DNA of 64,000 nt, from the NCBI RefSeq assembly GCF_016863295.1, contig NZ_BOOP01000046.1, forward strand, positions 1 to 64,000. The letters are read 5' to 3'. Source of the DNA: Planotetraspora phitsanulokensis (GTDB lineage Bacteria; Actinomycetota; Actinomycetes; Streptosporangiales; Streptosporangiaceae). Position numbers and translations under genes: made by a program. This document shows positions 53,785-64,000 of this stretch, one piece after another. Numbering within the stretch: the stretch's first letter is position 1; each line of letters begins with the position of its first letter. The notes under the pieces were generated by a model. The model saw nothing but the letters and a program-made list of their open reading frames with translations, was not told the origin of the DNA and did not search any database.

Positions 53785-55278
53785 ATGAACGTCGGCCGGA
53801 GCACGCTGGGTCTCGCGGCGGGTGTGCTGTTGGTCGTACTGGCGGCGATCGGCTACGTGCTGTCCCCTCCGGCGTTCGATCCCCCGCTCCTGGCCGCGTC
53901 TCCCGAGTTCAGCGACCTGCCCGCCCAGCCGGCGTCGGAGACGAGGCCGGTGGACACCTCGACGCCGGTCAGGACCGAGCACGTCGAGGTGGCCGCCGAG
54001 GACGAGACGCTGACGGCCACGATCAGGTCGCCCGTGTCTCCCGGCAGGCACCCGGCGATGGTGTTCGTCCAGGGCTCGGGATCGGGCAGCGGCTCGGAGT
54101 TCGCCAGCCAGTCGGAGTGGCTCGCCAGGGCGGGCATCGTGACCCTCTCCTATGACAAGCGCACGGTGGGCTACAACTTCCGGCAGCGCGACTTCTCCCT
54201 GCTCGCCGACGACGCGCTGCGCATGTTGCGCACGCTCCTGCAACGGCCCGACGTCGATCCCGCCAGGGCGGGGTTGTGGGGCGTCAGCGAGGGCGGCTGG
54301 GTGGTCCCGATCGCCGCCGCCTCCAGTGACGTGGCGTACGTCGTCCTGGTGTCGTCGCCGAACGTCTCCCCCCTGCGGCAGGTCGCCTGGGCGCTGAACG
54401 AGCAGTTGCTGCGCCTGCACGCCCCGTCCGGGGTGCGTGATCTGCTGACCCGCGCGATGGGCGGCGTGGGGTTCGACTTCCTGCGTCACGACGGCGTGCC
54501 CGCGCTCCAGGGCATGAAGCAGCCCGTCCTCGCCCTGTACGGCACGACCGACCCCTCCATCCCCTTCGTGGAGAGCACGGAGACGCTGACCGGCGCGCTA
54601 CAGAAGGCCGGGAACCCCGACTACACGATCCGCTTCCTCGCGGGCGCGGACCACGCCATGAGGATGTCGGGCGGCCCGTTCGTCCCCGACTACCTGCCCA
54701 CCCTGGCCAACTGGATCAAGGACCTTCCCCGTACGGCCAAGCCCGCGGTCCCGATCGCGGGCGCGACTCCCGTGCAGCGGTTCGAGGCGAGCGACGTGCC
54801 GGCCGCCCCGTGGTACGGCGGCGGCACGATCCTGTGGCTGACCATCTTCCTGGCCGCCGTCGGCTACGTGGCGGCGCCGGTCACCGAGATGGTCGTCCGG
54901 ATCCGGGGACGCGACACGCACCTGCAGGCTCCGGTGGTCGACATCTGGCCGGCCGTGCGGCGCCGGCTGCGCCGGATGGCGTGGACCGGCGCCGGAGAGT
55001 TGGCGGCCGTCGTCGCGTTCATCACATTGATCGTGCTGTTCTCGGTCAATCAGGCGGGGGCGTGGCCCGCCGTACAGGCCGGGTGGCTCGTCGTGCGGTT
55101 GCTTGCGGTCGTGATGCTCCTGCAGGAGGTGGCCGTGGCCGCGGCGGTGCTCAGCGGCCTGCGGGACGGCTGGAAGCCGAGCCGCTGGCAGAAGAACGTC
55201 CTGATCGGCGTCCTCGGCGGCACGGGCCTGTTGTTGCTGACCGCCGCCTACTTCGGGCTGTACGCCTTCCCCTGGTAG
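53785..55278 (+). CDS. Membrane-anchored alpha/beta hydrolase
   Basis: This 497-residue protein has an N-terminal membrane segment (LGLAAGVLLVVLAAIGYVL), an extracytoplasmic alpha/beta hydrolase domain (~70-320) with nucleophile elbow GVSEGGW and a GADHAM His motif, and a C-terminal region with four further membrane segments. The fusion to a polytopic tail is unusual for the family. The substrate is unknown. GGGGAGCGG precedes ATG 53785. It overlaps the convergent hydrolase gene by 31 bases. Confidence 0.85.
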   Translation: MNVGRSTLGLAAGVLLVVLAAIGYVLSPPAFDPPLLAASPEFSDLPAQPASETRPVDTSTPVRTEHVEVAAEDETLTATIRSPVSPGRHPAMVFVQGSGSGSGSEFASQSEWLARAGIVTLSYDKRTVGYNFRQRDFSLLADDALRMLRTLLQRPDVDPARAGLWGVSEGGWVVPIAAASSDVAYVVLVSSPNVSPLRQVAWALNEQLLRLHAPSGVRDLLTRAMGGVGFDFLRHDGVPALQGMKQPVLALYGTTDPSIPFVESTETLTGALQKAGNPDYTIRFLAGADHAMRMSGGPFVPDYLPTLANWIKDLPRTAKPAVPIAGATPVQRFEASDVPAAPWYGGGTILWLTIFLAAVGYVAAPVTEMVVRIRGRDTHLQAPVVDIWPAVRRRLRRMAWTGAGELAAVVAFITLIVLFSVNQAGAWPAVQAGWLVVRLLAVVMLLQEVAVAAAVLSGLRDGWKPSRWQKNVLIGVLGGTGLLLLTAAYFGLYAFPW

Positions 55279-56214: not shown

Positions 56215-56338
56215 AACGGCGTCGGTTAACGGACAAGAAGTGGTCAAGCGCCCAGGGTCCCGGCAAACCGCGGGTCGCGACTCGCTAGGCGTCATTCGCA
56301 CCTCAGTACATCCGGGGGCAGACCGCTTCAATGTGAAA

Positions 56339-57724
56339 ATGCGTTCCTGGGGTGTTTCGTCGAGAAGAGCCGCCGCGCTGATCGGCTGGGTCGCACTGTC
56401 GGCCCTCGTGCCGGGCGCCGCCCACCTCCGGGCCGGCTGGAGGCGCACGGGGTTCGCCCTGCTCGGCGGATACGCGACCCTCGTGGCCTGCCTCTGCGTG
56501 GTGACCGCGGTCGCCGACGCCGGCCTGGCGGGACGGGCGCTGGCCTGGCTGACGCAGATCACCGTGGCCGCCCTCGTCGGCGGCGTCGCCTGGCTCTGCC
56601 TGGTCGTGCACTCGTTCGTGGTGCTTCGCCCGGGGCGCCTGCCGCAGGGCGCGCAGGTGGTGGCGGGCCTGGCGACCGGCACGCTCGCCGTCCTGGTCGC
56701 CGTGCCGTTCACCGTCGTCGCCGAGTACGCGGCGATCTCGGAACGGACGATCGACACGGTCTTCACCGAGCCGAAGATCCCCGGCGAGCCCGTCAGGCCG
56801 GAGGACCCGTGGGCCGGCCGGAGCCGCATAAACGTGCTGCTGCTCGGCGGGGACGGGGACATCAGCCGCGTCGGGATCAGGACCGACAGCATCAACGTGG
56901 CCAGCGTCGACGTCCGCACGGGGAGGACCGTGCTGCTGGGGCTGCCGCGCAACCTCGAGCACGTGCGGTTCCCGCCGGGCAGCCCGATGGCGGCGCGGTT
57001 CCCGTCCGGGTTCCTCCTGCCGGAGTCCCGGCCCGGCTGGCGCGAGGACCTGCTCTACTCGGTGTGGCAGTACGCCGACGACCATCCCGAACTGTTCGGC
57101 GGGCGCACGGACATGGGCGCCCAGGTGCTGAAGGAGACCGTCGGCCACATCCTCGGCCTCCGGATCGACTGGTACGCGATGGTCAACATCTGGGGCTTCG
57201 CCAAGATCGTCGACGCGCTCGGCGGGCTGGTCATCAGCGTCGACAGGGACATCACGTACGGCACGTACGGCGAGGGGACGGTCGCCGCGGGGACCCGCAG
57301 GCTGAACGGCACCGACACGCTCTGGTACGCCCGGTCGCGCACCGGCAGCGACGACTACGACCGCATGCGCCGCCAGCGCTGCGTGTTCGGCGCGCTGCTC
57401 CAGCAGGCGGACCCGGCGGCCGTGCTCAGGCACTACGGCCAGATGGCCGAGGCGACCGAGGAGATCATCCGGACCGACGTGCCCCGGCCCATGCTGGAGC
57501 ACCTGGTGCCGCTCGCCTGGAAGGTCAAGCAGGCCGGCGTGACGAGCCTGCAGTTCATGCCGCCGCTGATCAGCACGGTCGCCCCCGACTGGGCCCGGAT
57601 CCGGTCGCTCACCGCCCAGGCTCTCAGCGAGTCCGCGGCTCCCGACGCCGCGCCCCACCGGCCCGTCGTCGCCGAGCCCGCGCCGACCTTCGCCGCCATA
57701 GGCGAGGGCTGCAGCGCCGTGTGA
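56339..57724 (+). CDS. LytR-CpsA-Psr (LCP) family protein
   Basis: This ~461-residue protein has four N-terminal hydrophobic segments and an extracytoplasmic LCP domain: INVLLLGGDGD, RTDSINVASVD, LLGLPRNLE, and SDDYDRMRRQRCVF. LCP enzymes attach undecaprenyl-linked glycopolymers to peptidoglycan. The multi-span N-terminus is longer than the single anchor of most LCP proteins. ATG 56339 is chosen; GTG 56333 is equally possible. Its stop codon forms part of a shared hairpin with the next gene. Confidence 0.9.
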   Translation: MRSWGVSSRRAAALIGWVALSALVPGAAHLRAGWRRTGFALLGGYATLVACLCVVTAVADAGLAGRALAWLTQITVAALVGGVAWLCLVVHSFVVLRPGRLPQGAQVVAGLATGTLAVLVAVPFTVVAEYAAISERTIDTVFTEPKIPGEPVRPEDPWAGRSRINVLLLGGDGDISRVGIRTDSINVASVDVRTGRTVLLGLPRNLEHVRFPPGSPMAARFPSGFLLPESRPGWREDLLYSVWQYADDHPELFGGRTDMGAQVLKETVGHILGLRIDWYAMVNIWGFAKIVDALGGLVISVDRDITYGTYGEGTVAAGTRRLNGTDTLWYARSRTGSDDYDRMRRQRCVFGALLQQADPAAVLRHYGQMAEATEEIIRTDVPRPMLEHLVPLAWKVKQAGVTSLQFMPPLISTVAPDWARIRSLTAQALSESAAPDAAPHRPVVAEPAPTFAAIGEGCSAV

Positions 57725-57745
57725 CGGCCCCCTCCGAGGCCGTCA
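57722..57745. terminator. Bidirectional hairpin containing both stop codons
   Basis: TGACGGCC (57722-57729) and GGCCGTCA (57738-57745) are perfect 8-bp arms with an 8-nt loop. The left arm starts with the LCP stop TGA, and the right arm ends with the TGA (TCA on this strand) of the convergent MenC-like gene. Confidence 0.65.
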
Positions 57746-58738
57746 GACCCGGAAGGACTCCCGGGCCAGGCGGCGCACCCGCGCCTCGTCGACGGTGTGG
57801 CCGAGGCCCGGCTGAGTGAGCGGGATCGCGACGACGCCGCCCGAGGCGCCGACCGGGGGCACGACGACCTGGGCGCTCTGCGGCGGCTCGGCCACTGCGC
57901 TCGGGAGCGTGCATCCCGGCAGGCTGGCCACGGCCACGGTCGCCGCTCGGGCCAGCCCCGCGCCGAGGCCGCCCATGCAGACGATGTCCCATCCCGCCTC
58001 GACCGCCCGGTCGTGCGCGGCGCGCACGGCGCCGAGCGAGCCGAACCGCGACGGCCGCAGCAGCAGCGCGCGACCGGCGTGCACCCCGACCGCCTCGTCC
58101 AGCTCGGCCACCGAGTGGACCTCCACCGCGACCGGCGCGTTCACCCGGTCCTGCAGCTCCGCGCTGGTCAGCAGATCCGCGAACGGACGCTGGATCGCGG
58201 CCAGGTCATAGGAGTCCAGCGCCTCGAGCTGGGCGATGTCGGTGTAGGCGCCGCGGCCGTCCACCGCGATGGCCAGCCCCGGGTACGCGGCCCGGACCGC
58301 GCGGACCGGCTCCACGTCCCAGCCCGGGTGGATGTCGATCGTGACGTGGGCGTAGCCCCCGCCGACGTGGCGGTTCACCCGGGCGACCATGCTCTCCAGC
58401 GAGCGGTCGGCGGGCACCCGGACGGTGGCGATCAGGGAGGTGCGGGTCCCGCCGAGAGCGTGGGAGAGCGGGACTCCGCTCATCCGCCCCCACAGGTCCC
58501 AGCACGCCATGTCGCCAGCCGCCCCTCCGGGGATCTGCCCCAGCTCGGACGGGTGCTCCCAGTCGACGCCGATCAGCGCGGGCAGCGACTTCTCGAGCAG
58601 GTTCTCGGGTGACGGCTGGACGATCTCCCCCCAGCCGGTCATGCCGCCGTAGTCGGTGAACTTGACCAGAGCGCTCTCAGGGCGCCTGCCGTACGGCAGG
58701 GTCATCCTGAAGATCTCGAGCTCCCGAACGCGCGGCAA
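57743..58738 (-). CDS. MenC-like enolase-superfamily protein lacking catalytic residues
   Basis: This 331-residue protein aligns well with o-succinylbenzoate synthase / N-acylamino acid racemase: DMACWDLWGRMSGVPLSHALGG, IHPGWDVEPVRAV and LARAATVAVASLPG are family-like. The KxK catalytic pair is replaced by T133-x-D135. Of the metal ligands, D160 remains, the Glu of the IEQP motif is Q183 and the Asp of LDES is E206. The second catalytic Lys is R228. It is therefore probably inactive as an enolase-type enzyme, with a binding role or new chemistry. TTG 58738 follows AAGGGGG. It lies 38 bases after the MFS gene, so they may share a transcript. Confidence 0.85.
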   Translation of the reverse strand: MPRVRELEIFRMTLPYGRRPESALVKFTDYGGMTGWGEIVQPSPENLLEKSLPALIGVDWEHPSELGQIPGGAAGDMACWDLWGRMSGVPLSHALGGTRTSLIATVRVPADRSLESMVARVNRHVGGGYAHVTIDIHPGWDVEPVRAVRAAYPGLAIAVDGRGAYTDIAQLEALDSYDLAAIQRPFADLLTSAELQDRVNAPVAVEVHSVAELDEAVGVHAGRALLLRPSRFGSLGAVRAAHDRAVEAGWDIVCMGGLGAGLARAATVAVASLPGCTLPSAVAEPPQSAQVVVPPVGASGGVVAIPLTQPGLGHTVDEARVRRLARESFRV

Positions 58739-58776
58739 TGGAAATCCCCCTTGTTTCAGATCTCCATGGTGCCCGC

Positions 58777-60123
58777 TCAGCGAGTGTGGTCAAAACGCCC
58801 GGCGATGGCGGCGCCCGTCCCGGCCATCGCGGCGAGCAGCGCGAAGCACGCCAGATAGACGGCCACAGTGCCGCCGAAGCCCGCGAAGATCGCGCCCGTG
58901 GCGGCGACCGCGACGATCGAGAACGCGGACTCCCCGATGGACAGGGACGCGGAGTTGCGGCCCTCCTCGCCGGGCGCGGACAACTCCAGGACGAGGACGG
59001 ACAGCGTCGGGTAGACGAGGCCGACGCCGAACCCGGCGAGGACCCATCCCATGAACGCGGCGAACACGGGGACGCCGTCGAAGACGGCCAGAGCGGTGAC
59101 CGCGATGCCGGCCGCGATCAGCGCCGTGCCCACGCGGAGCACGACCGCCCTGCCGAACTTCCCGCGCCCCTGGATCCACGAGCCGAGCGACCACGCGAGC
59201 GCGCCCCCGGTGAGCGCGACGCCCGCCTGTGCCGGGCTGAGCCCGCGCTCGGTCGTCAGGCTGAGCGGGACGAAGACCTCGGTGGCGAAGAAGGCCCCGG
59301 CCGCGAGCCCGCGCAGCGCGACGACGGTCGGCAGGCCACGTGCCGCCCGCAGCGTCCCCGAGGGGAGCAGCCGGGGCAGCGCGACGACGAGGAGCACCAG
59401 CCCCACGATCGCCAGCGACGACACCGGCCACGCGGCACCGCTGCCGTACTGGAGCAGGGCTGCTCCCAAGGCGGCCACCGCGCCCCACGCGAGGGCCGGC
59501 GCGAAGTCCCGGTTCGCGTCCGTTTCCGCGGGCGGCGCGGTCTGCCTCGGGAGGCCGCGCCACAGGACCAGCACCGCCGGCGCCGCCAGCATCGGCACGC
59601 CCAGGAACACCCAGCGCCAGCTCAGCTGCTCGGCGACGACGCCGGTGATCGCGGGCCCGACCACCGAGGGCAGCACCCAGGCGGCGGCCAGCAGTGAGAA
59701 GACCTTGGGGTGCGCCTGCGCCGGATACACCTGGGCGACCAGGACGTAGAGGGCGACGTTGAACAGGCCGCCGCCGAGCCCCTGGACGAACCGCCCCGCG
59801 AGGAAGACCTCCATGGTGGGAGCCGTCCCGGCGACGACGAGCCCGGCCATGAACGCGGCGATCCCGGTCCACAGGGGCGCGCGGGGTCCCTTCACGTCGC
59901 TCCAGCGCCCGCCGGCGACCGTCGCGATCACTCCCGCGGCCAGGCCGCCGCTGAAGGCGAGCCCGTACAGGTGGTAGCCGTCGAGCTCGCGCCCGACGAC
60001 GGGCATCGCCGTCGCCACCGCCAGATACTCGAACGCCACCAGCGTGCTCAGCGCGACCATTCCGGCGCTGAGGGCGCGCAGTCGCGGGGAGAAGACGGCG
60101 GGCTCGGTCAAGGTCGCGGTCAT
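58777..60123 (-). CDS. Major facilitator superfamily transporter
   Basis: This 448-residue protein has 14 or fewer predicted membrane helices in the drug-efflux style: an N-terminal half with FEYLAVATAMPVVGREL and the loop motif GGRWSDVKGPR, and a C-terminal half beginning near RGLAAGAFFATEVFVPL. The substrate is unknown. ATG 60123 follows TAAGGT (60136-60131) by exactly 7 nt; GTG 60132 is an alternative. The -10 overlaps the stop codon of the VWA gene. Confidence 0.9.
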   Translation of the reverse strand: MTATLTEPAVFSPRLRALSAGMVALSTLVAFEYLAVATAMPVVGRELDGYHLYGLAFSGGLAAGVIATVAGGRWSDVKGPRAPLWTGIAAFMAGLVVAGTAPTMEVFLAGRFVQGLGGGLFNVALYVLVAQVYPAQAHPKVFSLLAAAWVLPSVVGPAITGVVAEQLSWRWVFLGVPMLAAPAVLVLWRGLPRQTAPPAETDANRDFAPALAWGAVAALGAALLQYGSGAAWPVSSLAIVGLVLLVVALPRLLPSGTLRAARGLPTVVALRGLAAGAFFATEVFVPLSLTTERGLSPAQAGVALTGGALAWSLGSWIQGRGKFGRAVVLRVGTALIAAGIAVTALAVFDGVPVFAAFMGWVLAGFGVGLVYPTLSVLVLELSAPGEEGRNSASLSIGESAFSIVAVAATGAIFAGFGGTVAVYLACFALLAAMAGTGAAIAGRFDHTR

Positions 60124-60130
60124 GTCATGC

Positions 60131-60147
60131 ACCTTACGAACGTCCGT
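60131..60147 (-). promoter_or_regulatory. -10-like TAAGGT and overlapping near-palindrome
   Basis: TAAGGT (60136-60131) ends 7 nt before ATG 60123. ACGAACGTCCGT (60136-60147) is a 12-bp near-palindrome next to it, a possible operator. Both lie at the 3' end of the VWA gene. Confidence 0.45.
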
Positions 60148-61264
60148 CCGCGGGTGCCATCAGACGTTGGTCGTAGGACCTCCGCTCGATCGCCGCGGCC
60201 ATGAGCTCGGGGAACGCGTCGGGCGTGCAGGCGAAAGCCGGCACCCCCATCTGGGCGAGGGCCGCCGCGTTGTCGTGGTCGTACTGTGGCGTCCCCTCGT
60301 CGGACAGGGCGAGCAGCACGATGACCTGGACGCCGGCGGTGGTCATCGCGGCCACCCGCCGTAACATCTCCTCGCGCACTCCGCCCTCGTAGAGGTCGCT
60401 GATCAGCAGGAAGATGGTGTCGGCGGGGCGGGTGATCAGGCCCTGGCAGTAGGCGACGGCGCGGTTGATGTCGGTGCCGCCGCCGAGCTGGGTGCCGAAG
60501 AGCACCTCGACCGGGTCGTGCAACTGGTCGGTGAGGTCGACGACCGCGGTGTCGAACACGACGAGCGAGGTCCGCAGCGACCGCATCGAGGCGAGCACGG
60601 CGGCGAAGACGCTCGCGTAGACCACCGAGGCCGCCATCGACCCGCTCTGGTCGACGCACACCACGACCTCCCGCTGGACGGCCTGCTGCCTGCGGCCGTA
60701 GCCCACCAGCCGGGACGGCACCACGGTGTTCCGCTCGGGCAGGTAGTTCTTCAGGTTGGCCGCGATGGTGCGGTTCCAGTCGATGTCGGCCACCCGTCTC
60801 GGCCGGTGGGTCCTGGCCGAGCGGTCGAGGGCGCCGGTGACGGCGGCTCGGGTCCGCCGCTCGAGCCTGGCCTCAAGCTCCCTCACCACCTTCCTGACGA
60901 CCGCCCGAGCCGACTCCCGCGCCTTGTCCGGCATCACCCGGTTGAGCGACAGCAGCGTCCCGACGAGATGCACGTCGGGCTCGACGGCCTCCAGCATCTC
61001 CGGCTCCAGCAGGAGCCTGGTCAGGTTGAGACGCTCGATCGCGTCCTTCTGCATGATGTGGACGACGGTCGACGGGAAGTACTCCCTGATGTCCCCCAGC
61101 CACCTCGCCACGCGGGGCGCGGAGGCGCCGAGACCGGCGTCCCGTTCGTAGAGCGCCGACAACGCGGCGTCCATCCCGGCGTCCGGGCCCTGCAGCGTGC
61201 TCTGGAGCGCGCCCTCCGACGCGCCGCCGAGCACCAGCCTCCACCGGCGTGCCCGCTCGTCCAT
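60134..61264 (-). CDS. VWA domain protein of a MoxR-associated cassette
   Basis: This 376-residue protein has a helical N-terminal half and a C-terminal von Willebrand A domain with a complete MIDAS: DQSGSM near residue 205, GGGTDI and SDLYEGG. VWA partners of MoxR ATPases bind metal-dependent ligands and act in complex assembly or conflict systems. ATG 61264 overlaps the preceding stop (TGATG), coupling it to the DUF5682-type gene. Confidence 0.9.
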   Translation of the reverse strand: MDERARRWRLVLGGASEGALQSTLQGPDAGMDAALSALYERDAGLGASAPRVARWLGDIREYFPSTVVHIMQKDAIERLNLTRLLLEPEMLEAVEPDVHLVGTLLSLNRVMPDKARESARAVVRKVVRELEARLERRTRAAVTGALDRSARTHRPRRVADIDWNRTIAANLKNYLPERNTVVPSRLVGYGRRQQAVQREVVVCVDQSGSMAASVVYASVFAAVLASMRSLRTSLVVFDTAVVDLTDQLHDPVEVLFGTQLGGGTDINRAVAYCQGLITRPADTIFLLISDLYEGGVREEMLRRVAAMTTAGVQVIVLLALSDEGTPQYDHDNAAALAQMGVPAFACTPDAFPELMAAAIERRSYDQRLMAPADGRS

Positions 61265-63414
61265 CACGCCCTCCCCAGGATTTCCAGAACGGTCCGTACG
61301 GCTCCCGCGGCCTGCTCCTCGTCGGCGTCGGACGCCTCGCGGGCGGGAACGGGAGCGCCGGAGCGAACGCGATCGCCGATCATGCGGCGCTCGGGCGGGG
61401 CGAAGGCCCCGAAGGTGCGCCGGAGCAGCGGCAGCACGTCGACGAACGCCACCGGCGGCAGTCCTGTGAGCCAGCCGTCCACGATCGCGAGCAGCCTCGG
61501 GTCGTGGACCAGCAGCAGTCCGCCGCCCGACAGGAAGCCCTCCATCCACGCGGCGGCCCGCTCGGGCGGATTGCCGGACGACATCGCCCGCGCCATGCGG
61601 ACGGACACGTCGTCCACGCTCGCGTCGGCGTCGAAGAGGATGCGCACGATCCGGCCCTCGATGATGCCCGGCAGCCCGGTGCGGCGGGCCAGGTTCGCGA
61701 GCGTCGCCTGCCACAGGTCGCTCCCGAGTAGTCCCACCGCGCTGTGGACTCCGTCGATCAGGCCGGTCATCTGCCGCGCCGAGTCGTCGTCGAGCCCGGT
61801 CAGCGCGGGCGCCAGGCCGGCGCAGATCCGCGCGAGCAGCGAGTCGGTTATCGCGGCGAGACCGCCGGTCCCGCGCACGTCTCCGTAGCGCTGTGCCCGG
61901 ACGAGCGCGGGCAGGGCCGCCATGAGGTGCGAAACCTGCCCGTCGAGCGCGGCCTTGTCCTTGATCGCCTGCAGGATGCCGGGCAGGGCGGCGGTCAGGT
62001 CGGCGAGCAGGCACCGCTCGACGAGCGAGGTCAGGTCGGCCAGCGACGCGTCCTCCCGCGCCGCGAGCTCCCCGGCCCGGGCGGCCGCCGCGTCGTCGAC
62101 GGTGACCCCCCAGGGGGCCGCCTCGATGAGCGCCACGTCGAACTCCGGGCGCCACTCCAGCGTCCACGACTCCCTGAAGGTGCCCTTCCCGCGGGTCTGC
62201 CGCGTCGTCCCCCACGGCACGCCGATCATGTTCAGCCGGTGCAGGAGGCGGCTTCGCCCGAGGTCGAGCGGCTTGCGCAGGTCGAGGTCGTGCTCGCGGG
62301 CGAGCGCCTCGGGCTTGAGGCGCAACCGCCGTTGCTCCTCCCGTAGGTGCCGTTGCAGCGGGACCATCGGGGTGGAGCCCGGCACACCGCCGAGCCGCTC
62401 CCCCACGACCATGCGGCGCTGAATCAGCTCCACGGGCAGGTCGTCGCCTTCGCACAACACCGCCCTGGCGGCCTCCGTCACCTCCGAAAGCCCCGCGAGG
62501 GGCCGGCCACGGAGCCCGGCCAGGCCCTGCGCGAGCCGTACGGACTCGATCACGTGGGCGGAGGAGACCGGCAGTCCCTCTTCGCGCAGTACCGCGGCGG
62601 CCCCGGCCAGCCAGCGCTCGACGGGACGGTCGGGAGCGGAGAACAGGTGGTCGTACCAGCCCGGCGAGGCGACGCCCGCGCCGTATCCGCTGCGGGCGGC
62701 CAGCCGTCCGTGCGTCCACGGCACCCAGGTCATGTCGACCTTGACCTTGGGGATGCCCCGCAGCAGTCGCTCGTCCTGCGCCGCGGGAGGCAGGTGGGTC
62801 AGCGCGGGGACGTGCCACGCGCCGCAGACGACGGCGACGGAGCCGAACCCGTCCTTGAGCGCGTTGCGTAACGCCCGGCGCATGGCGGCCTCGCGCAGCG
62901 CCTCGGTGCCGGTCGGCTCGTGTCCCTCTCTGAGGGCGGCCATCGCCTCGGCGACCGCGTGGAGGGTCCCTGTCTCTCCGCGATGCTCGACGACGTCGTC
63001 CCACCAGCGCTCGGGATCGTCGTACCCGGCGGCCCGCGCGAGCTCTCCGATCGGGTCGAGCCGCGCGTGCTCCTCCCCCTCCTCCTCGGGCAGGGCGAGG
63101 CTGTGGGCGGCGGGCAGGTCGCAGAAGCGCACCTCGACGCCCGCCTCCCGTGCGTAGGCGATGGCCTGCCATTCGGGCGAGAACACCGCGAACGGCCAGA
63201 AGGCGGCGCGTCCCTGCGCGTGCGCCAGGAGCGCGACGGGGGGTTCCATCTCGGGATCTCCCGCCAGCGCCACGAGGGGGTCGGCCTCCGGCGGCCCCTC
63301 GATGAGGACGACGTCCGGCCGCAGCCGTTCGAGTTCGGCGCGAACGGCCTTCGCCGAGCCTGGACCGTGGTGCCGGACGCCCAGGATCGACGGCGCGGCG
63401 ACCTCAGCCCGCAT
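61264..63414 (-). CDS. DUF5682-type protein of a MoxR-VWA cassette
   Basis: This 716-residue protein begins ILGVRHHGPGSAKAVRAEL and continues RPDVVLIEGPPEADPL, with VVCGAWHVPAL near residue 200. The paired His, the EGP motif and the later GxWHxP recall the TraB/ChaN/erythromycin-esterase-like fold, which is inference. The rest is a large helical region. Such proteins are encoded between a MoxR AAA+ ATPase and a VWA gene, as here. ATG 63414 overlaps the ATPase stop by 11 bases. Confidence 0.85.
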   Translation of the reverse strand: MRAEVAAPSILGVRHHGPGSAKAVRAELERLRPDVVLIEGPPEADPLVALAGDPEMEPPVALLAHAQGRAAFWPFAVFSPEWQAIAYAREAGVEVRFCDLPAAHSLALPEEEGEEHARLDPIGELARAAGYDDPERWWDDVVEHRGETGTLHAVAEAMAALREGHEPTGTEALREAAMRRALRNALKDGFGSVAVVCGAWHVPALTHLPPAAQDERLLRGIPKVKVDMTWVPWTHGRLAARSGYGAGVASPGWYDHLFSAPDRPVERWLAGAAAVLREEGLPVSSAHVIESVRLAQGLAGLRGRPLAGLSEVTEAARAVLCEGDDLPVELIQRRMVVGERLGGVPGSTPMVPLQRHLREEQRRLRLKPEALAREHDLDLRKPLDLGRSRLLHRLNMIGVPWGTTRQTRGKGTFRESWTLEWRPEFDVALIEAAPWGVTVDDAAAARAGELAAREDASLADLTSLVERCLLADLTAALPGILQAIKDKAALDGQVSHLMAALPALVRAQRYGDVRGTGGLAAITDSLLARICAGLAPALTGLDDDSARQMTGLIDGVHSAVGLLGSDLWQATLANLARRTGLPGIIEGRIVRILFDADASVDDVSVRMARAMSSGNPPERAAAWMEGFLSGGGLLLVHDPRLLAIVDGWLTGLPPVAFVDVLPLLRRTFGAFAPPERRMIGDRVRSGAPVPAREASDADEEQAAGAVRTVLEILGRA

Positions 63415-64000
63415 CGCGGCAGGCCCGGTAGAAGTCGCGCCAGTCGTCGCGGTCGCGGACCACGGCCTCGAGGTACTCCTGCCAGACCACCCGGTCGGCC
63501 ACCGGATCCTGGATGACCGCGCCGACGATCCCGCCCGCGATGTCGGCGGGGCGGAGCACCCCGTCGCCGAAGTGGGCCGCGAGGGCGATCCCACTGGTCA
63601 CCACCGAGATCGCCTCGGCGGTGCTCAGCGTGCCGCTCGGCGACTTGACCTTGGTCCGCCCGTCCGACGTCACTCCGGAGCGGAGCTCGCGGAAGACCGT
63701 GACCACGCGGCGGATCTCCTCCATGCCTGCCGGGGTCTCGGGCAGCTCCAGCGAGCGGCCCAGCTGGGCGACCCGCCGGGACACGATCTCCACCTCTTCC
63801 TCGGCGCTCGCGGGAACGGGCAGCACGACGGTGTTGAAGCGCCTGCGCAGCGCGCTCGACAGGTCGTTGACGCCCCGGTCCCTGTCGTTGGCCGTGGCGA
63901 TGACGTTGAAGCCCTTGGCCGCCTGGACCTCCTCGTTGAGCTCGGGGATGGGCAGCGTCTTCTCGGACAGGACCGTGATCAGCGCGTCCTGGACGTCGGA
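63404..64000 (-). CDS. MoxR-type AAA+ ATPase (C-terminal part; continues past the window)
   Basis: The frame is open to position 64000, giving 198 residues of the C-terminal part. It contains the sensor-1 and arginine-finger region GFNVIATANDRDRGVNDLSSALRRRF and a helical lid domain. Walker A and B lie outside the window. MoxR ATPases act as chaperones with VWA partners; the two downstream genes overlap in sequence (stop/start overlaps), so the three are one operon. A further gene pair (SWIM, DUF5691-type) often lies upstream in related loci and would be past the edge. Confidence 0.88.
   Translation of the reverse strand, partial: SDVQDALITVLSEKTLPIPELNEEVQAAKGFNVIATANDRDRGVNDLSSALRRRFNTVVLPVPASAEEEVEIVSRRVAQLGRSLELPETPAGMEEIRRVVTVFRELRSGVTSDGRTKVKSPSGTLSTAEAISVVTSGIALAAHFGDGVLRPADIAGGIVGAVIQDPVADRVVWQEYLEAVVRDRDDWRDFYRACRDAG

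Follow-up and report, generated by a model that had tools for sequence, protein, structure and literature searches.

Two questions are raised by one gene in the window, the 64,000-nucleotide stretch of Planotetraspora phitsanulokensis DNA analysed here: is its product still an enzyme, and if it is not, what is it kept for? The open reading frame itself is genuine and preceded by a good ribosome-binding site (Table 1). Pfam recognises the enolase C-terminal barrel, MR_MLE_C, in the window protein (E = 1.8e-18) and in all 59 rows of an alignment of its orthologues. The N-terminal capping domain, MR_MLE_N, reaches 16.6 bits in the window protein, under the 22-bit cut-off; 55 of the 59 rows match it at E <= 0.01, with shortened loops. 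The top NCBIfam match is an o-succinylbenzoate synthase (OSBS) model, menC_lowGC_arch, at 98 bits far below its cut-off of 200.65. The nearest named proteins come from Planotetraspora (98% and 95% identity), and the gene is also present in four more genomes of that genus.

Table 1 Features of the locus. Residue frequencies refer to the 128 altered family sequences.
Feature	Coordinates	Strand	Description
Putative pseudo-NSAR gene	57743..58738	minus	331 aa; TTG start at 58738, stop at 57743; open reading frame and translation; Pfam MR_MLE_C and PDB NSAR matches
Shine-Dalgarno-like AAGGGGG	58746..58752	minus	7 bases before TTG; read from the sequence
T133 codon	58340..58342	minus	catalytic Lys of KxK in NSAR; T in 105/128, R in 23/128
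D135 codon	58334..58336	minus	second Lys of KxK in NSAR; from alignments
D160 codon	58259..58261	minus	metal ligand, retained; D in 122/128
Q183 codon	58190..58192	minus	metal-ligand Glu in NSAR; E in 122/128
E206 codon	58121..58123	minus	metal-ligand Asp in NSAR; E or D in 107/128
R228 codon	58055..58057	minus	catalytic Lys in NSAR; R in 117/128
MFS transporter	58777..60132	minus	Pfam MFS_1; 38 bases upstream, same strand
LytR-CpsA-Psr (LCP) family protein	56240..57724	plus	Pfam LytR_cpsA_psr; convergent neighbour, start uncertain

Solved structures place the protein among N-succinylamino acid racemases (NSARs). The best match is the Deinococcus NSAR (E = 1.7e-39, query residues 51-319); Deinococcus and Thermus NSARs head the list, with the Amycolatopsis NSAR/OSBS lower down. 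A sequence-only reading of this locus had aligned the protein with OSBS and N-acylamino acid racemase along its whole length, which is too strong given the shortened capping domain. An AlphaFold model, for which close orthologues were the only input, matches the same NSAR structures, its barrel with Z of about 24 to NSAR/OSBS; the mean pLDDT is 68, falling below 50 at residues 69-103 and 284-314. With the NSAR/OSBS enzymes of Deinococcus radiodurans (1r0m) and Amycolatopsis (1sjb), the window protein has the fold and several sequence blocks in common, at about 28-33% identity. Unlike them, it has neither the KxK pair nor the second catalytic Lys, the 20s and 50s loops, which cap and close the site, are shorter, the DES motif is reduced to E, and no GNAT or M20 partner accompanies the gene. 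By these comparisons, it is a member of the NSAR/OSBS family.

At the six active-site positions, the window protein reads T133/D135/D160/Q183/E206/R228, against K/K/D/E/D/K in its intact relatives. In the model, these sites lie at or just past the ends of successive strands (E131-135, E156-160, E181-183, E203-206 and E224-227). We read the columns in the alignment with the Deinococcus NSAR and in a MAFFT alignment with intact paralogues of the same genome (L002, L003), and the two agree with the assignments of the sequence-only reading: T133 and D135 for KxK, R228 for the second Lys, Q183 and E206 at two metal ligands, and D160 left. A lysine pair provides the bases in NSAR and related enzymes (PMC8142540), and OSBS enzymes are believed to possess the same catalytic residues (PMC1431709). 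A shifted alignment is ruled out as an explanation: the only lysines of the protein are K26 and K50, both outside the barrel, so that no shift could restore a catalytic Lys. The blocks flanking the active-site columns are in register, and the place of E206 in the Asp-ligand column is backed by altered relatives with VCLD or VAPD there. Some orthologues carry a Lys231 (LRPAKFG in Microbispora) where intact NSARs have Arg; it is not conserved.

The loss extends well beyond this strain. Within the GTDB family that holds the Streptosporangiaceae, 255 of 297 genomes contain a match at E <= 1e-40 (245 of the 263 of good quality), a count that includes intact copies, such as that of genome G026, whose only strong match is intact. 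Class-wide, 57 of 394 genomes match at E <= 1e-38: 41 belong to the window's family and 16 to three others, one of them, at a guess, Micromonosporaceae. The ten copies read from those 16 (L195-L204) are all intact. Once identical or contained sequences had been merged, residues could be read in 180 distinct sequences, 51 of them intact (KKDEDK) and 129 altered; one altered sequence, L235 (RKDEQK), was set apart as a more distant paralogue, which leaves 128 in the family.

All three lysines are absent from 127 of these 128, L070 alone retaining the one on strand 6, and position 133 is always T or R. What is uniformly lost is thus the lysine bases and not the metal ligands, since D160 and E183 are each retained in 122 sequences. 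As a description of the family, the earlier claim that almost all catalytic residues had gone is right for the lysines and too strong for the ligands, position 206 being acidic in 107. Likewise, the two changed metal ligands are a true description of the window protein, whose strand 3/4/5 acidic set is incomplete, and not of most orthologues, which read D/E/E or D/E/D. Four distinct sequences have Q183, namely P. kaengkrachanensis, Acrocarpospora pleiomorpha, L115 and the window strain. Judged from the alignment, it is a local change, orthologues as a rule having E183. Most members could plausibly bind metal through D160-E183-E206; binding would be weaker in the window strain.

Changes also reach the wider shell. 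Among 20 intact NSARs, 99 columns are near-invariant, and 64 of these have been lost from one or more of three altered groups; N162, C204, M257, the Tyr and Glu of the 50s loop and the ES of the DES motif are examples. The remaining 35, GWGE, PGWD, D243 and C254 among them, are retained in all three.

A quick tree of 85 rows, made without bootstrap, unites the 65 altered rows in a single clade (SH-aLRT 99) that nests among the 20 intact NSARs. Next to it stands L127, from G026 (support 81), followed by L170/L171 (97). Support for the altered clade is 98 after removal of nine active-site columns. On this topology, the altered proteins and the NSARs share common descent. The best trees give a single altered clade and so speak against independent losses; an alternative that joins the intact L127 to the R-type clade is unrejected (AU p = 0.249), hence either one or two losses are possible. 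The nearest intact NSARs come from other actinobacterial families (L195-L204) and from the same one (L127/L154, L168-L171), with about 36-47% identity over the best segment: they adjoin the altered clade in the tree, but have the KKDEDK site and GNAT/M20 neighbours.

The gene is selectively maintained across the family, in which it occurs widely and evolves under constraint. Its pairwise dN/dS ranges from 0.08 to 0.23 (Nei-Gojobori, eight comparisons, dS 0.17-0.60). The LCP gene (0.21-0.52) and the MFS gene (0.21-0.40) both lie above it, a hydrolase gene at 53785-55278 mostly so (0.17-0.27), and the VWA gene is similar (0.10-0.19). Mean column identity is 75% over 59 sequences. The sequence-only reading had proposed a maintained pseudoenzyme whose well-kept fold argued against decay, with orthologues expected to have the same replacements under purifying selection. 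Family-wide loss of the lysines, low dN/dS and the nesting among intact NSARs all point the same way. As an alternative it had offered an enolase-fold protein that has gained a new function, which would also be possible.

Gene neighbourhoods separate the intact and altered copies. At intact loci, a GNAT partner gene is present in 22 of 22 and an M20 hydrolase in 20 of 22, with Pfam assignments for three example genes; L177 and L178 are the two without M20, the sequence of L177 ending about 1 kb downstream. At altered loci, no GNAT or M20 gene was found (E <= 1e-10) in 34 with context, nor in 81 more, namely 80 named loci and the whole window. The two sets overlap by one locus (L208 = L094), and the flank is shorter than 3 kb on one side in 3 of the 34 and 7 of the 80. 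The GNAT partner is an acyltransferase and the M20 partner a hydrolase. Their place beside the intact copies fits a D-to-L conversion through an NSAR pathway, reportedly the subject of Sakai et al. (2006).

In G026 an allantoinase-like gene and an alanine dehydrogenase gene lie upstream of the intact NSAR, GNAT and M20 genes on the same strand, the distance from alanine dehydrogenase being about 10 kb. The same pair is found near altered relatives without GNAT or M20: in 18 of the 19 loci of a clade that we call Nocardiopsis-like, a name that is itself inferred, alanine dehydrogenase lies 1.3-2.8 kb away from the altered gene. The G026 arrangement (L154) is thus possibly the ancestral neighbourhood.

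An MFS transporter adjoins the altered gene in the window, as noted earlier from the sequence, and likewise in 65 of the 77 named loci open to this test. The association fails in the other 12, and the more distant altered clades adjoin other genes. The transporter and the putative pseudo-NSAR gene may form an operon here. Of 79 named loci that could be tested for it, 44 have a LytR-CpsA-Psr gene in convergent orientation no more than 1 kb away. MFS, LCP, alanine dehydrogenase and allantoinase are each restricted to particular clades, and none qualifies as a universal partner; with no neighbour common to all altered clades, no partner is indicated. As a separate observation, VWA/CoxE-like and DUF5682 genes stand side by side at 60134-63594 on the minus strand of the window, and near the altered gene in most of the 80 named loci.

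We now propose, with moderate confidence, that the protein is a pseudo-NSAR: a pseudoenzyme whose most likely role is to bind a small molecule or a partner. It would descend from a working N-succinylamino acid racemase in a GNAT/NSAR/M20 pathway. The lineage would have shed GNAT, M20 and all three catalytic lysines early in the history of the family, after which purifying selection would have kept the gene. In an inner clade, the pocket would then have been fixed as T-x-D / D / E / E / R. What is left is a barrel, which in most members keeps three carboxylates at the metal site; position 133 is T or R, and position 228 is usually R. Racemisation and dehydration would no longer be performed, as the lysine bases are gone; with the capping loops shortened as well, proton transfer is very unlikely. 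Binding of a ligand or partner without turnover fits best: the barrel would accommodate a small carboxylate or a partner protein and might serve as a sensor, regulator or scaffold. The altered protein probably does a new job.

How enzymes gain new reactions is classically illustrated by the enolase superfamily. Here we would have the opposite trend on the scale of a family: catalysis lost and the protein kept, across a family of soil actinobacteria. The alignments read as a retained fold with conserved loss of essential catalytic residues, as in a pseudoenzyme. A literature search, limited for subscription papers, found no described pseudoenzyme family within NSAR/OSBS or the enolase superfamily. 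Pseudoenzymes are known in many other superfamilies, where the fold is likewise kept, the catalytic residues are lost and the protein is retained (PMC10415035). An intact relative in the same neighbourhood, together with clades that fixed different replacements, makes the purpose of a fold deprived of its chemistry testable. To annotate such proteins as 'o-succinylbenzoate synthase' on the strength of homology would be a mistake.

The main rival is a lysine-free enzyme, with a new active site on the enolase fold and a different reaction; we consider it rather unlikely for the family, and its case is strongest for the inner clade. This clade spans Planotetraspora to Nonomuraea, and its 30 rows are nearly fixed at the six sites: T133 in 100%, D135 in 93%, D160 in 100%, E183 in 93%, E206 in 97% and R228 in 97%. 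Their mean entropy is 0.20, compared with 0.76 for random columns (resampling P = 0.027), and the metal-ligand carboxylates are mostly kept in the family at large. The fixed set of this clade might just as well be a new active site. The Nocardiopsis-like clade could have a site of its own, with R133 and mostly E135 and R228. Against a common chemistry, the replacements are not the same from one altered clade to the next, and two of these clades show wide variation at positions 135 and 206, so that no family-wide catalytic set emerges; in the window protein, the shortened capping loops also weigh against it. For the binding role that we favour, a point against is that the remaining two altered groups conserve the six sites no better than an average column (P = 0.74 and 0.68), which gives no signal of a ligand pocket there. 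The inner-clade pocket thus appears to have been fixed anew, and that of the other groups to have relaxed. A bolder version, in our view unlikely, would have the inner-clade site rebuilt as a lysine-free TxD / D / E / E / R centre that binds metal and a new ligand, for chemistry or sensing new to the enolase superfamily; the intact G026 gene in its ancestral neighbourhood would represent the step before.

Returning to a pseudoenzyme without turnover, it might act through an active relative: as a regulatory subunit that forms mixed oligomers with the cell's own intact NSAR/OSBS paralogue. The window genome (G000) does have two intact paralogues, G000:C13 and G000:C34, and regulation of active subunits by pseudoenzymes is a known theme (PMC10415035). 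As a general role it is improbable. An intact-NSAR profile was run against 31 genomes, and in 21 of them nothing besides the altered protein scores above 165 bits, where the intact copies read there reach at least 361 bits; an obligate partnership with an intact NSAR is thereby rejected. Eight of the remaining ten genomes carry an intact copy too, G026 has only an intact one, and the second copy of G020 is altered (RKDEQK).

More improbable still is that the altered protein is the MenC of the menaquinone pathway, working poorly or by a modified mechanism. The idea has some appeal in the window genome, where MenB scores above its curated cut-off, menD- and menF-like genes lie near it (by eye), no MqnA/MqnD-family match was found, and a dedicated actinobacterial-type MenC is absent, as it is in all five genomes of the genus considered (G000 and four others). 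That MenC is another protein of the same superfamily, exemplified by L251 727-1686, which we take to be of the Thermobifida fusca OSBS type; its motifs (KVK / DAN / EQP / DES / LKV) appear intact by eye. All 12 non-Planotetraspora genomes compared encode it separately from the altered gene, which they all keep too. Among 50 further genomes, mostly of the inner clade, a dedicated MenC is present in 21 and absent in 29, and all 29 carry an intact-scoring NSAR/OSBS besides the altered protein (at least 392 bits, against at most 270 for altered copies). Thirty such loci were read (L218-L222, L260-L284), which cover 18 of the 29, and all are KKDEDK.

This co-occurrence of the altered protein with a dedicated MenC or an intact NSAR/OSBS rejects the MenC role, and the lysines that the OSBS reaction employs are gone. 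G015 and G025 have MenC and no intact-scoring NSAR. MenC matches flagged with an in-frame stop (G015, G033 and G135) are open throughout the aligned core, from 13 to 314/315, in all three; G015 is the most important of them, being without an intact-scoring NSAR. In the window genome, the one in which MenB was tested, an intact NSAR/OSBS (G000:C13 or C34) probably doubles as MenC.

Finally, a pseudogene or drifting relic, which could explain the shortened capping loops and the variable base and metal-ligand columns of two altered groups, is scarcely credible given the low dN/dS, the column identity, the family-wide presence and the lack of any internal stop among the matches listed at E <= 1e-40 in the GTDB family. 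A second altered NSAR-type paralogue does exist: L235 (G020:C149:1148-2101), with the RKDEQK site, is about 35% identical to the window protein and, by identity, falls outside the main altered clade.
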